A stretch of DNA of 64,000 bases. It comes from an uncultured Rhodobiaceae bacterium. Lineage in GTDB: Bacteria > Pseudomonadota > Alphaproteobacteria > RS24. The stretch spans positions 496,001 to 560,000 of the forward strand of contig CALCUM010000002.1 of assembly GCA_937907245.1 (NCBI GenBank), read 5' to 3'. A program made the translations under genes and the position numbers. This document shows positions 17,549-43,364 of the stretch, in pieces (position 1 is the stretch's first letter; each line of letters starts with the position of its first letter). The notes below the pieces were generated by a model. It did not search any database, was not told where the DNA came from, and saw only the letters and a list, made by a program, of their open reading frames with translations.

Positions 17549-18802
17549 ATGACGCGAGCTTTTGGCGCTTTAGAATGGCAAATTGCCGGCCGCTACCTGC
17601 GCTCGCGCCGACGCGAGAGCTTTATCTCGGTCATCGCTGGCATTTCCTTTTTGGGCATCATGCTGGGCGTCGCGACTTTGATTGTCGTCATGGCGGTGAT
17701 GACGGGTTTTCGCGCTGATTTGCTAGATCGTATTCTGGGCGTGAACGGTCATGCCACCGTTCGAGCCTTTCAAACAGAATTCATTGACCGAGACGCTTTG
17801 GTGAAAAAACTCGAAGTCGCCGATGGGGTGGTGTTCGCCACGCCCTTGGTTGATGGCCAAGCCATGTTGTCGTCTGGCTCAGCTGTGCGTGGGGTTTTGG
17901 TGCGCGGGCTGCCGCTGGAGAAGCTGAAACAATTACCGAGCTTACAGGGCAATATTGTTGACGGGTCTTTGGATGATTTGGCTGGCGCGAATACCATTGC
18001 CATGGGCGTTCGATTGGCCGAGCGACATGGCTTTAAAATTGGAGACCGCGTGTCGCTTATCTCGCCGCGCGGCACCCTTACGCCCTTTGGAACCGCACCT
18101 CGGTTGAAGCAATTTAAATTGGCGGCGATTTTCCGTATCGGCCTATCCGAATATGATTTGAATTTTACCTTCATGCGCATTGGCCCGGCCGCCGATTTTT
18201 TTGGCCTCAGCGAAAACCAAGGCGCCATAGATTTGGTGTTGGATGACCCGGACTCGATTGACCAACGCGCGCCCGAGCTGCGTGCCTTGGCAGGCGAGGG
18301 GCATTATCTGGTCGATTGGAAGCAAAGCAATAGCACCTTGGCTGGCGCGTTAGAGGTTGAGCGCAATGTCATGTTCATGATTTTGACGATGATTTTGCTG
18401 GTGGCAGCGCTAAATATAATTTCGGGTCTGGTGATGTTGGTGCGCGATAAGGGCCGAGATATCGCTGTTATGCGCTCGATGGGCGCGTCGCGCGGGCTCA
18501 TCTTGCGGGTGTTTTTCATTACCGGAGCGAGTATTGGCGTTTTGGGCACGATTGCTGGCGTTGGGCTGGGCACTTTGTTTTGCGCCTATATCGAAGAAAT
18601 TCGCCAATTCCTGATTTGGTCGACGGGGGCAAATTTGTTTCCTGCCGAAGTATATTTCTTGGAACGCATGCCGGCCCTTATTTTGCCCAGTGATTTGCTG
18701 CAAGTCACCGGTATGGCGCTAACCCTGTCCTTCTTGTCGACGCTCTATCCCGCTTGGCGCGCGGCCTCTATGGAACCTGTGGAGGCGTTACGCAATGAGT
18801 AG
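17549..18802 (+). CDS. lolC: Lipoprotein-releasing ABC transporter permease (LolC/LolE family)
   Basis: Inner-membrane permease that extracts outer-membrane lipoproteins and passes them to LolA. The 417-residue protein has the usual plan: one helix near residues 25-50, a large periplasmic domain, then three helices at about 275-300, 320-345 and 380-405. Only one permease gene is present next to lolD, so the transporter may be a homodimer of a LolC/E hybrid (LolF-like) or pair with a gene elsewhere. It overlaps lolD by eight bases. Confidence 0.92.
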   Translation: MTRAFGALEWQIAGRYLRSRRRESFISVIAGISFLGIMLGVATLIVVMAVMTGFRADLLDRILGVNGHATVRAFQTEFIDRDALVKKLEVADGVVFATPLVDGQAMLSSGSAVRGVLVRGLPLEKLKQLPSLQGNIVDGSLDDLAGANTIAMGVRLAERHGFKIGDRVSLISPRGTLTPFGTAPRLKQFKLAAIFRIGLSEYDLNFTFMRIGPAADFFGLSENQGAIDLVLDDPDSIDQRAPELRALAGEGHYLVDWKQSNSTLAGALEVERNVMFMILTMILLVAALNIISGLVMLVRDKGRDIAVMRSMGASRGLILRVFFITGASIGVLGTIAGVGLGTLFCAYIEEIRQFLIWSTGANLFPAEVYFLERMPALILPSDLLQVTGMALTLSFLSTLYPAWRAASMEPVEALRNE

Positions 18803-19472
18803 TCATTTTGCCTTATCCGATATTCATCAGCGTTTCGTGCAAGGCGAGCGAGCTTTGCATGTGCTGCAAGGTGCCTCGCTAGAGATTGCGCAAGGCGAAG
18901 TGGTGGCACTAGTTGGCCCAAGCGGCTCGGGTAAGTCGAGCCTTTTACATATTGCGGGTCTGATGGAAAAGCCAGAGCAGGGCAGTATTACCCTGAAAGG
19001 GCAAGTGGTCACCGATGCCGAGGATAAGGCGCGCACGGAGCTGCGCCGCGCCCATATCGGCTTTGTTTATCAGTTCCACAATTTATTGCCCGAGTTCACG
19101 GCGCTAGAAAATGTCGCCATGCCGGCCCGGCTGGCAGGCGATACGAAATCACAAGCTTTGGCCAAAGCGGCGGCTTTGATTGAGAAACTGGGCTTGGCCG
19201 ATCGGGCGAGCCATTTGCCATCGCAACTTTCGGGCGGCGAACAACAGCGGGTCGCGATTGCGCGCGCGCTTACCAATACGCCCGCATTGGTCTTGGCCGA
19301 TGAGCCGACGGGCAGTCTCGATGGCGCGGCGGGTGACAAAGTCGCGGATTTATTACTCAGTGAAGCCCGCGCGCAAGGCAGCTCGGTTTTGCTGGCGACC
19401 CATGATATGGACTTGGCCGCCAGGGCCGACCGGATTGTGCGTTTGCGCGATGGACTTATTATTACCGTCTAG
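18795..19472 (+). CDS. lolD: Lipoprotein-releasing ABC transporter ATP-binding protein
   Basis: ATPase that powers lipoprotein release with the LolC/E permease. All ABC motifs are visible: Walker A GPSGSGKSS near residue 41, the signature LSGGEQQRVAIARAL near residue 145, Walker B LVLADEPTGSLD near residue 165 and the switch histidine in LLATHDMDLA. The 225-residue length is standard. The start lies inside the end of lolC, showing coupling. Confidence 0.96.
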   Translation: MSSHFALSDIHQRFVQGERALHVLQGASLEIAQGEVVALVGPSGSGKSSLLHIAGLMEKPEQGSITLKGQVVTDAEDKARTELRRAHIGFVYQFHNLLPEFTALENVAMPARLAGDTKSQALAKAAALIEKLGLADRASHLPSQLSGGEQQRVAIARALTNTPALVLADEPTGSLDGAAGDKVADLLLSEARAQGSSVLLATHDMDLAARADRIVRLRDGLIITV

Positions 19473-19544
19473 GTCATTACCCTTTCGTCATCATTTTTCA
19501 AAAAGCCCAGAAAACTAGGCGAGAATGCCCTTTATTCATGGGGG

Positions 19545-19576
19545 TTGACAAAAGAACAAAAAGTGAACATTATAGT
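19545..19576 (+). promoter_or_regulatory. Strong promoter for the sidA-like gene
   Basis: A perfect -35 TTGACA (19545-19550) is followed by TATAGT (19571-19576, 20-base spacer) or the overlapping CATTAT (19569-19574, 18-base spacer). It reads towards the 34-residue gene at 19593. A LexA box occupies the spacer, so repressor binding would exclude RNA polymerase. Confidence 0.65.
19554..19568. promoter_or_regulatory. LexA box (GAAC-N7-GAAC)
   Basis: GAAC at 19554-19557 and GAAC at 19565-19568 are separated by exactly seven bases. This is the reverse complement of GTTC-N7-GTTC, the established alphaproteobacterial LexA site. It lies between the -35 and -10 elements of the promoter, where a repressor would act. 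A lexA gene is present in the same window (42616-43278). Confidence 0.8.
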
Positions 19577-19592
19577 TTCAAAGAGGAGACAA

Positions 19593-19697
19593 ATGATGAC
19601 TAATTTAATTGAAGACTTTCTAACCGTTTGCACTTTGCTGGCTATGGGCACAGCGATTGTTATGTGGGGATCTATCGGCCAAGCCTTAGCTGGTTAA
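19593..19697 (+). CDS. SidA-like SOS-induced small membrane peptide, 34 aa
   Basis: The frame encodes 34 residues beginning MMTNLIEDF, with one hydrophobic helix (about residues 9-25, LTVCTLLAMGTAIVMWG) and an IGQALAG end. A GAGGAG ribosome site sits at normal spacing before an ATGATG pair, and a LexA box lies inside the upstream promoter. In Caulobacter crescentus the SOS-induced division inhibitor SidA is a 29-residue inner-membrane peptide that acts on FtsW/FtsN, and as I recall its gene also lies by dnaE. Orthology is inferred from size, membrane helix, LexA control and place; such short sequences cannot be aligned with confidence. Confidence 0.7.
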   Translation: MMTNLIEDFLTVCTLLAMGTAIVMWGSIGQALAG

Positions 19698-19835
19698 TAA
19701 TTATCCCCTTTAATTTACGAAAAGCGCGCGCTCCTTTGCTGACAGCGGCGACGCTTTCGCTAAACTAATAAACGTTCGAGTGATTCCGCCGACGGCGCGG
19801 GTGTCATAATTTGGCGTATATTTGTGTAGGCGTAG

Positions 19836-22800
19836 ATGTCAGCAATATCCAATTCTTCCGTATCGACACATGACCATTTGAGAGAAGGGGGCGTGGTTAA
19901 TCTTATGCGTCCTAAATTCATTCACCTGCGCACACATAGCGCTTATTCTCTGCTCGAGGGCGCTCTGCCCATTAGAACGCTCACACAGACGGCTGTGGCT
20001 GCACATATGCCCGCGCTGGCGGTAACGGATCGCAACAATCTTTTTGGCGCGCTAGAATTTGCTGAAACGGCAACTGGCGTGGGGCTTCAGCCAATCATTG
20101 GCGCCACTTTGCGGGTGCGCGACGGCGAAGAAGATGACGGGGATATCGCGTTACTGGTCAAAAACCGAGCGGGCTATGATAATTTAATGGCGCTGATAAG
20201 TGCGGCGCATCTGCAAGACGAAGGCAAGCTGGGGCCAGGCGTTGACGAGGCTTTGATGGCGCGCCATGCGGACGGGTTAATTTGCCTAACCGGCGGCCCC
20301 GATGGGCCGATAGATAAGCTTTTGGCCAGCAACCGAAAAGATAAAGCAAAAACAAAATTATTAAACTATATCAATATCTTTAAAGATAATATTTATGTAG
20401 AGCTTCAACGTTATACAGATACGCTGGATGAAGAAACAGAGACCGCTCTGATTGACTTTGCCTATGCGCATGACCTGCCTTTGGTGGCCACCAATCAGGC
20501 TTATTTTGCTTCCGTAGAGGACTATCGTGCCCATGATGCGTTGATATGTATTGCCGAGGGGCGCTATCTAAACGAGAGCGATCGGCGTCGTTTAACCCCG
20601 GATCACCGTCTAAAGTCAGCCGAAGAAATGTGCGCTTTATTCGCCGATTTACCCGAAGCCATTGAAAGCAGCATCGAGATTGCTCAACGATGCGCGTTTC
20701 GCCCCACAGAGCATGAGCCTATTTTGCCCGCGTTTGCAGAGGGCGACGAGTTGGACGTGTTGTCCAAGCAAGCCCACGAGGGCTTAACGCAGCGTTTAAA
20801 GCAAATTGTGCCAGCCACCGAAGGGGCGAATTACCGCGAGCGGTTGGATTTTGAGCTGAAGGTCATCGGCGACATGGGTTTTCCGGGCTATTTCCTGATT
20901 GTGGCGGATTTCATCAAATGGTCGAAATCGCAGAATATCGCGGTTGGCCCAGGGCGTGGCTCCGGCGCGGGCTCAGTTGTGGCTTGGGCGCTTACCATTA
21001 CGGATTTAGATCCCTTGAGGTTTAACTTGCTGTTCGAGCGGTTTCTCAACCCAGAACGCGTATCGATGCCAGATTTCGATATCGATTTTTGCCAATCGCG
21101 CCGCGATGAGGTGATTACCTATGTGCAGCAAAAATATGGCCGCGATCAAGTAGCGCAAATCATCACTTTCGGGAAGCTGCAAGCGCGCGCGGTATTGCGC
21201 GATGTTGGCCGTGTGTTGCAAATGCCATATGGCCAGATTGACCGCCTAACCAAAATGGTGCCGAATAATCCGGCCAATCCGGTCACCCTGTCGGAAGCCA
21301 TTGAGCAAGAGCCGCGCATGCAAGCCGAGCGCGATAGCGACCCGCAAGTAGCAGAGTTGCTGGAGATTAGCCTGAAGCTAGAAGGCCTGTATCGGCATGC
21401 CTCGACCCATGCGGCGGGCGTGGTAATTGGCGATAGGCCCCTTCAAGAATTAGTGCCGCTTTACCGCGACCCGAAATCGGACATGCCGGTAACCCAGTTT
21501 AATATGAAATGGGTAGAAAAAGCAGGGCTGGTGAAGTTTGACTTTCTGGGCCTAAAAACGCTGACCGTCCTCGAAAAAGCCGTTGAGCTGATTGAGGGCA
21601 CGGGAATAAGCGTGGATATTCACAATCTGCCGCTCGACGATGAAAAGACTTATGAGCTTTTAGGACGCGGCGACACGATTGGCGTGTTTCAGTTAGAAAG
21701 CTCGGGCATGCGCGATGTGCTGCGCAAAATGCGGCCCGATAAATTTGAAGATATTATCGCGCTCGTGGCTCTTTACCGTCCGGGGCCGATGGACAATATT
21801 CCGACCTATATCGCTTGTAAAATGGGCGAGCAGGAACCCGATTACATGCACGACAGTCTGAAATCCATTTTGGAAGAGACCTATGGCGTGATGATTTATC
21901 AAGAGCAAGTGATGCAAATCGCGCAAACCCTATCGGGCTATTCGCTTGGCGAGGCGGATTTGCTGCGCCGTGCCATGGGTAAGAAAATTCAAGCTGAAAT
22001 GACCGCGCAAAAAGCCCGTTTCATTAATGGCGCCGTGGAGCTGGAAGTGAACCGCAATCAGGCGGCGCTGATTTTCGACCAAGTCGATAGTTTTGCGGGC
22101 TACGGTTTCAACAAAAGCCACGCCGCCGCCTATGCCTTAATTGCTTATCAAACCGCTTGGCTGAAAGCCAATCATCCGGTGGCGTTTTATGCGGCCTCTA
22201 TGTCGCTTGATTTTGAGCGCACCGAAAAGCTCAATAGCTTCAAACAAGATGCCGCCAAACATGACATCATCACCTGCACGCCCGACGTCAATCGTTCGGT
22301 GGCGGCTTTTTCCATCGAGGGCGACCAAATTTTTTATGCGCTCTCGGCTATCCGAAATGTCGGCAGTCTGGCGATGCAGGGCGTGGTTGATGAGCGGATG
22401 GAGAACGGCCCGTTTAAGGATGTGTTCGATTTCGCCCGCCGCACAGCAGGTATTGGGCTGAACAAACGCTTGCTGGAGCATTTAATTGCGGCCGGGGCGC
22501 TGGATAGTCTGGAGCCCGATAGAGCAAAGCTTATGGGCGGCATCGGCGTTCTGCTGGGCGAGGCGAGTATTGCGCAAAATGAAAAAGAGACCCAGCAAGA
22601 TAATCTATTTGGCGAGGCGGATGTTAGCGAGAGCGTGGTGCTGCCTGCCGCTTTGGTGCCATGGTCGGCGATTGACCGACTAACGCATGAATATAATGCC
22701 CTCGGCTTCTTTTTATCTGGCCATCCGCTGGATGATTATAAAACGCTTTTGAAGCGCGCGCGGGTCGCGAGCTTTGAAGATTTGGAAAGCCGTGTCGAGA

Positions 22801-23294
22801 AAGAAGTCATGGTGGCGGGCGCCATTACCAAAGTGGAGGAGCGCAAGTCGAAAGACAAAGGCAATCCTTATGCGTTTGTGACGCTATCCGACCCGACGGG
22901 GCAATTTGAAATGATGGCTTTCTCTAAGGCGCTAGAGGCGTCGCGCGAGCATATGCAAGTTGGCGCCCTTGTGGTCTCGACCGTGAAAATTGAGCGCGAC
23001 GATGGGCAATTGCGCTTACTTATGCAAGGCATGCGCCCGGTCGATGATGTGGCCGCGCACACGGAAGCAGGCTTGCGGATTTTCATAGAGAAACCCGAAG
23101 CCTGTGCAGGCCTAAAAGCGCGTCTTGAGGATGTCGAGAAGCCCCGCCATAAAACCGGCGGGGAGGTATCGTTGATTTTGATGAGCCCCGAGCGCGAGGT
23201 AGAACTGCGCCTGCCGAATAAATATGCCATCAACCCGCGCATCACGGGCGCCATTAAGGCGGTGCCTGGCGTTTTGCACGTCGAAGAAGTCTAG
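19836..23294 (+). CDS. dnaE: DNA polymerase III subunit alpha
   Basis: Replicative polymerase catalytic subunit, 1152 residues, of the DnaE1 class. The N-terminal PHP domain begins with HLRTHSAYSLLEGA. The palm aspartates lie in PDFDIDF near residue 413, with the earlier GPGRGSGAGSVVAWAL motif near residue 370. An OB-fold region follows near residues 990-1060. The start at 19836 has a poor ribosome site. An in-frame ATG at 19905 (MRPKFIHLR), preceded by AGAAGGGGG, is a likely alternative and is closer to the family N-terminus. Confidence 0.96.
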   Translation: MSAISNSSVSTHDHLREGGVVNLMRPKFIHLRTHSAYSLLEGALPIRTLTQTAVAAHMPALAVTDRNNLFGALEFAETATGVGLQPIIGATLRVRDGEEDDGDIALLVKNRAGYDNLMALISAAHLQDEGKLGPGVDEALMARHADGLICLTGGPDGPIDKLLASNRKDKAKTKLLNYINIFKDNIYVELQRYTDTLDEETETALIDFAYAHDLPLVATNQAYFASVEDYRAHDALICIAEGRYLNESDRRRLTPDHRLKSAEEMCALFADLPEAIESSIEIAQRCAFRPTEHEPILPAFAEGDELDVLSKQAHEGLTQRLKQIVPATEGANYRERLDFELKVIGDMGFPGYFLIVADFIKWSKSQNIAVGPGRGSGAGSVVAWALTITDLDPLRFNLLFERFLNPERVSMPDFDIDFCQSRRDEVITYVQQKYGRDQVAQIITFGKLQARAVLRDVGRVLQMPYGQIDRLTKMVPNNPANPVTLSEAIEQEPRMQAERDSDPQVAELLEISLKLEGLYRHASTHAAGVVIGDRPLQELVPLYRDPKSDMPVTQFNMKWVEKAGLVKFDFLGLKTLTVLEKAVELIEGTGISVDIHNLPLDDEKTYELLGRGDTIGVFQLESSGMRDVLRKMRPDKFEDIIALVALYRPGPMDNIPTYIACKMGEQEPDYMHDSLKSILEETYGVMIYQEQVMQIAQTLSGYSLGEADLLRRAMGKKIQAEMTAQKARFINGAVELEVNRNQAALIFDQVDSFAGYGFNKSHAAAYALIAYQTAWLKANHPVAFYAASMSLDFERTEKLNSFKQDAAKHDIITCTPDVNRSVAAFSIEGDQIFYALSAIRNVGSLAMQGVVDERMENGPFKDVFDFARRTAGIGLNKRLLEHLIAAGALDSLEPDRAKLMGGIGVLLGEASIAQNEKETQQDNLFGEADVSESVVLPAALVPWSAIDRLTHEYNALGFFLSGHPLDDYKTLLKRARVASFEDLESRVEKEVMVAGAITKVEERKSKDKGNPYAFVTLSDPTGQFEMMAFSKALEASREHMQVGALVVSTVKIERDDGQLRLLMQGMRPVDDVAAHTEAGLRIFIEKPEACAGLKARLEDVEKPRHKTGGEVSLILMSPEREVELRLPNKYAINPRITGAIKAVPGVLHVEEV

Positions 23295-42615: not shown

Positions 42616-43278
42616 CTAATATTTACGAATGAGCCCGACAAGGCGACCTTGCACGCGCACTTGGTCGGCGCGGAAGATGCGAGTTTCATAGGCTTGGTTG
42701 GCAGCTTCTAAAGCAATCATTTCCCCTTTGCGGCGCAAGCGTTTCAAGGTGGCTTCATGGCCTTCAACCAAAGCGACGACAATTTCGCCATTTTCGGCCG
42801 TTGCACCATTTTGAATAATCGCTGTGTCGCCATCTAGAATACCCGCTTCAATCATCGAATCACCATGCACTTCGAGCGCATAATGTTCTCCTGAGCGGAG
42901 CATTTCCATGGGAACCGAAATTTGATTCACTTCTTCTTGTAGCGCCTCAATAGGCGTGCCGGCGGCAATTCGACCCATTACAGAGATCGACATCGAGCGA
43001 TCATCATTGGCCGCGACAGGGGGCGTACTCGCCCGGGAGGGGCTGGCCAGACTGGCCGACAGGGTATCGGGTAATTTAACCACTTCGAGCGCTCGGGCAC
43101 GGTGAGCCAAGCGTTTGATGAAGCCACGTTCTTCTAAAGCGGTGATAAGACGGTGAATGCCAGACTTGGAACGCAAGTTCAAAGCTTCCTTCATTTCGTC
43201 AAAACTGGGCGAAACGCCGGTCTCTTTTAACCGTTCATTGATGAACAACAAAAGCTCGTATTGTTTTTTCGTAAGCAT
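42616..43278 (-). CDS. lexA: LexA repressor
   Basis: SOS repressor that cleaves itself when RecA filaments form. The 220 residues comprise an N-terminal winged helix (about 1-65) and a C-terminal S24 peptidase domain. The cleavage site Ala106-Gly107 lies in [11 protein letters not shown]. The catalytic pair is Ser141 ([10 protein letters not shown]) and Lys179 (GHEATLKRL). Two LexA boxes precede the gene (43296-43331), so it should be autoregulated, and another lies at the sidA-like gene. The moaC/moeA genes often found between trpC and lexA are missing. Confidence 0.97.
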
Positions 43279-43295
43279 AGGTGCCCCTCAAAGTA

Positions 43296-43331
43296 GAACG
43301 AATCACTAACTCTTTTGTTCTACTTTTATTC
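43296..43331. promoter_or_regulatory. Two LexA boxes upstream of lexA
   Basis: GAAC-N7-TAAC (43296-43310) and GTTC-N7-ATTC (43317-43331) each match seven of eight bases of the alphaproteobacterial LexA site, in opposite orientations with six bases between. The outer sequence is a perfect inverted repeat, AAAGTAGAAC and GTTCTACTTT. Their place just before the lexA start fits autoregulation. Confidence 0.7.
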
Positions 43332-43364
43332 GCATTTGGGTGCAAGAGGCTTAATTCGAGTTAT

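Follow-up and report, generated by a model that had tools for sequence, protein, structure and literature searches.

A SidA-like micropeptide gene with a putative LexA operator lies upstream of dnaE in an uncultured Rhodobiaceae bacterium

The window, that is, the whole 64,000-nucleotide stretch of DNA analysed here, carries between lolD and dnaE an unannotated micropeptide gene, which we regard with good confidence as a highly diverged relative of sidA that occupies the ancestral sidA place, would be derepressed upon LexA cleavage and most likely blocks septal wall synthesis at FtsW/FtsN. An earlier sequence-only reading had labelled the frame SidA-type, a guess from its size and control; the label is now supported by three independent lines, namely place, LexA control and a kinship that runs through intermediate peptides. 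The curated SidA model is not matched.

The gene is preceded by a sigma-70 type promoter, TTGACA-N17-CATTAT, at positions 19545..19573 of the forward strand, on which all features named in this paragraph lie except lexA. The -35 element (TTGACA, 19545-19550) and the -10 element (CATTAT, 19568-19573) are separated by 17 nt and score 10/12, and recA and the relatives show the same layout. Inside the spacer sits the putative LexA operator GAACAAAAAGTGAAC (19554..19568), which is kept in relatives and is the alphaproteobacterial GTTC-N7-GTTC direct repeat seen from the other strand. When the letters were read again, the promoter with its GAAC-N7-GAAC box and the ribosome-binding site GAGGAG (19583..19588; retained in the closest relatives) were found where the sequence-only reading had put them. 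That reading had also proposed a frame of 34 codons. Two in-frame start codons are present, ATG 19593 giving 34 aa and ATG 19596 giving 33 aa, and the latter was taken as the conserved start because one relative (L013) has that ATG alone. Thus, the 34-codon frame holds if translation begins at 19593, whereas the conserved start gives the 33-aa peptide MTNLIEDFLTVCTLLAMGTAIVMWGSIGQALAG (19596..19697, stop codon TAA at 19695-19697). The leader is short, with ~20 nt from the -10 element to the first ATG. AlphaFold2 modelled the peptide as a single helix of residues 2-32 with a mean pLDDT of 87, of which approximately residues 8-28 (19617..19679; hydropathy 1.98) are predicted to span the membrane, in agreement with the one transmembrane helix noticed earlier; the product would be a single-helix inner-membrane peptide. 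Both neighbours are conserved, lolD upstream (18795..19472) and dnaE downstream (19905..23294, beginning MRPKF...), the latter marking a sidA-type locus, and the placement of the gene between them was confirmed. The gene of the expected repressor, lexA, lies 23 kb off within the window on the reverse strand (42616..43278). Unlike recA and the peptide gene, lexA has an imperfect box only (GAACAAAAGAGTTAG) in its promoter region (43279-43340).

The bare GAACN7GAAC motif occurred once in the window against 1.24 expected, and 17 times genome-wide against 95 for its mirror image. Since about one per window is expected and the genome shows no enrichment, the box alone is not noteworthy. The full pattern of promoter plus box was expected 0.01 times, even when 3 mismatches were allowed. 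Furthermore, in this genome the window box recurs letter for letter (15/15) as the operator of recA, and the imuA-imuB-dnaE2 operator is near-identical to it. LexA control of the peptide gene is well supported by these matching operators.

The search for short frames with a LexA box between lolD and dnaE of relatives, suggested at the outset, found the micropeptide gene in 11 of 11 other genus members and in other genera. Altogether, homologs were present in 21 of the 28 family genomes, with full-length matches of 39-94% identity to the window peptide, and a 26-aa form was present in one further genus. In every family copy read, GAAC-N7-GAAC begins 41-62 nt upstream of the ATG, and the copies lie between lolD and dnaE wherever the contig extends far enough. 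The expected bias toward synonymous substitution was borne out in this frame only: within the genus, pN/pS was 0.175 for the peptide frame, and the two alternative frames gave 1.30 and 2.07. Residues M1, E6, D7, L14, W24, I27, G28, A30, and L31 were invariant in an alignment of 16 sequences. Judged by this substitution pattern and by conservation of frame, box, and place in relatives, the window frame is a real gene, and its coding status is well supported. It is worth noting that the further genus (g5) seemed empty, but 4 of its genomes (L045-L048) carry the 26-residue version, MIVKDLIALVSLISFGYFVLMIGSFL, at the same position behind the same box; this form between lolD and dnaE is possibly the smallest natural one.

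The same locus was then read in Caulobacteraceae, where SidA is 29 aa long (PMC4211646), sidA is CCNA_02004 in Caulobacter crescentus (PMC10769358) and dnaE is CC1926 (PMC1839093). In named Caulobacter and Phenylobacterium genomes, a gene for a 29-30 residue peptide lies immediately upstream of dnaE and carries one or more LexA boxes, some of them imperfect. The Caulobacter peptide was recognized as NCBIfam NF033228, cell division inhibitor SidA, over 29/29 positions (E 6.4e-21, 74 bits), and in Caulobacter ~50 nt separate the sidA stop from dnaE. Neither dnaE nor sidA was found on the contigs of a Caulobacter vibrioides MAG (L145), and other named Caulobacter species were read instead; the sidA-dnaE adjacency would, as in its relatives, hold for the type strain. 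Queries with PopZ and CtrA were used solely to locate genomes (PopZ for named Caulobacter). NF033228 matched 3 control genomes, the C. vibrioides control included, 1 of them above the cut-off. Two loci, L327 (G089) and L323 (G302), each have a pair of tandem LexA boxes and a SidA-like peptide (in L327, MARWVREMLSLASCGGFVWMAWQAALLAY) that stays under the curated SidA cut-off; this model seems drawn too narrowly to include even close relatives. In the papers that were read, we found no description of SidA outside Caulobacter.

In the order search, only the window's own family was represented, and distribution was therefore assessed across the class. In 143 other alphaproteobacterial genomes, all outside the window's family, the sequence upstream of dnaE (located by tblastn) was surveyed. 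Exact GAAC-oriented boxes occurred in 16 cases, and in all 16 a short hydrophobic frame of the family type comes next, such as MSEWVKDTAALFVLGAVMWSGFALTAAAQAAG, ...DGWFKDIAALISVGAFIWVVSTWTVIAQTLIG, and MREWIGDLVALGMMAGSIWLVVLWGAVFGIVSV; control motifs yielded none. Boxes of the opposite orientation (GTTC) near dnaE were followed by a micropeptide in 1 of 8 cases, and that box adjoins a GAAC-oriented one. In four other genomes (L111, L116, L122, and L132), GTTC-N7-GTTC stands 54-60 nt before the dnaE match with no micropeptide; these sites may be there by chance or may put dnaE itself under LexA control. The survey peptides have in common A-L and, at the N terminus, an x-D pair (often K-D); in many of them the helix also contains one or two tryptophans.

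Like the window gene, sidA lies upstream of dnaE behind a LexA box of the same orientation and encodes ~30 residues with one helix. Nevertheless, the window peptide gave no match at E≤10 to NF033228 (a 29-position equivalog, 35 bits), nor did anything in genome G000, and it matched nothing in Pfam, NCBIfam, and PHROGs. Direct comparison of the window-family profile with the SidA profile was not significant, as 79 of 200 shuffles did as well. The 14 micropeptides that served as intermediates had been selected for their place, box, and hydrophobicity, without regard to sequence. Against the profile of these intermediates, hhalign gave E 6.7e-8 for the window-family profile and E 2.3e-7 for the SidA profile, with 0 of 200 column shuffles as good in either comparison. 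Common ancestry of the window peptide with SidA is well supported in this transitive form, and the remote kinship is claimed solely through the intermediates because the direct window-SidA comparison was not significant. In an all-branch profile, the worst member scored 5e-7 versus 0.7 for the next frame upstream of dnaE, the members being mostly in the profile. In a ranking against decoys, the window peptide scored 11.2 bits; some decoys turned out to be additional SidA or own-family peptides, and no unrelated real decoy stood among the listed family members. As a few shuffled sequences scored higher than the window peptide in this ranking, the profile-level test with 200 shuffles was relied on.

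The locus-derived profile was also run over a sample of 385 whole alphaproteobacterial genomes, and it found one match each in 31 genomes of 12 families, whereas NF033228 passed its cut-off in 1 of the same genomes. Among 9 matches previously unseen, which this profile had picked out by sequence alone, 8 had an exact box no more than 90 nt away and 7 lay beside dnaE, which adds to the support for kinship. The remaining one, in L355 (G255), WLKDTLALVSLFALTWMGMAWIAVLDLT, lies off dnaE and without an exact box, and may be a false positive or a copy that has moved. The window peptide displays all features of the wider SidA-like family, namely a LexA operator in the same orientation, a place upstream of dnaE, and ~26-47 aa with one membrane helix. 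"SidA-like" fits it and "is SidA" would be too strong, because it matches neither the curated model nor SidA directly; it is a divergent branch that falls outside the curated SidA equivalog. The window peptide has 33 aa versus 29 in SidA, with E-D near the N terminus and a late W where SidA has R-E and an earlier W. These conserved residues differ, and the divisome contact could therefore differ as well. The host genome, too, is very different from that of Caulobacter, being small (1.8 Mb).

Other small division inhibitors resemble the window peptide in part. YneA, SosA, ChiZ, and DivS of Gram-positive bacteria are DNA damage-induced, single-helix membrane division inhibitors, as proposed here, and for YneA, ChiZ, and SosA the presumed target is FtsW (PMC13396833). 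They are, however, bigger proteins that carry a LysM domain or an extracytoplasmic extension, and no kinship to the window peptide was seen; the latter, with 33 aa and a helix of residues 2-32, has neither an extracytoplasmic extension nor LysM or any other domain. DidA of Caulobacter, likewise a small membrane inhibitor of the FtsW/I/N complex, has 71 aa, binds FtsN, and is SOS independent, being controlled via DriD (PMC4211646).

The peptide could instead be a membrane toxin that resembles TisB/DinQ and is controlled by LexA. It would depolarise the membrane and slow growth or make persisters, and would be restrained by an antisense RNA. Size, single helix, and SOS control fit such a toxin of Escherichia coli equally well, as TisB has 29 aa and DinQ is another LexA-controlled membrane micropeptide of similar size. 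These peptides, however, belong to type I toxin-antitoxin systems with an antisense RNA and are not encoded at dnaE, and they typically have a long structured leader, for which the ~20 nt present here leave no room. The window locus shows no sign of an antisense RNA: Rfam gave no match within 19300-20100, and a single weak terminator-like hairpin on the minus strand was at chance level. With kinship and locus pointing to SidA, we consider a toxin of this type improbable.

Alternatively, the element could mainly be an SOS promoter for dnaE, with the frame as a leader or by-product, such that release of LexA would raise the replicative polymerase. No terminator was found between the peptide gene and dnaE (19698-19904), and dnaE starts 207 nt downstream in the window, against the ~50 nt of Caulobacter; because the gaps are short and no terminator was found, read-through into dnaE is possible, and it may be an additional function. 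As the principal role it is improbable, given the strong selection on the frame at the amino acid level, a helix chemistry kept across ~12 families, and the proven role of SidA in inhibiting division (PMC4211646). Finally, a chance open frame behind a chance motif, for which the expected 1.24 bare motifs per window would speak, is refuted by the conservation of box, frame, and place in dozens of genomes and has practically no likelihood left.

For the SidA-like peptide, division arrest is suggested by kinship. SidA binds FtsW and FtsN, and mutations in ftsW/ftsI suppress its effect (PMC4211646); it has also been modelled, with low confidence, against TM7 of FtsW (PMC13396833). Genes of the FtsW/RodA family are present in the host genome. 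In the proposed mechanism, LexA bound to its box in the spacer of the promoter would keep the peptide gene off until DNA damage occurs and RecA induces LexA to cleave itself. The promoter, which is close to consensus, would then fire alongside recA and imuAB-dnaE2, and the peptide would enter the inner membrane, where it would most likely bind the septal wall-synthesis complex of FtsW/FtsI/FtsN through FtsW, and perhaps FtsN, and hold the complex inactive, making constriction wait until repair is done. Both the damage induction of the window gene and its FtsW/FtsN target are putative.

These data suggest that an SOS division stop by SidA-like peptides is spread over many families of Alphaproteobacteria and is not confined to Caulobacter. 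We think it reasonably probable that SidA belongs, as one branch, to an ancient alphaproteobacterial checkpoint, namely a rapidly evolving micropeptide under LexA control that is kept beside dnaE in at least 11-12 families, is reduced to 26 residues in one genus, and escapes both gene callers and curated models. Such a checkpoint would do for the whole class what SulA does in Gammaproteobacteria, with septal wall synthesis and not FtsZ as its target, and is possibly coupled to the supply of the replicase (dnaE) by read-through. A single-organism inhibitor would thus become a class-wide, testable family, whose natural variation from 26 to 47 residues offers material for finding the FtsW/FtsN contacts. 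Moreover, position together with an operator can reveal genes that homology search misses because they are too short and evolve too fast.

Further sites were noticed in genome G000 at contig ends. Contig C1 (L001, 3085 bases) carries many iteron-like direct repeats (AGGGTTATTTCCACTGC) at its start, ~146-396, followed by a GTTC-N7-GTTC site, and is perhaps a small plasmid. Near the start of contig C2 (L002:395), a T-rich LexA-like site, GTTCGCTCTTTGTTC, lies beside a tRNA-like sequence at the contig end.
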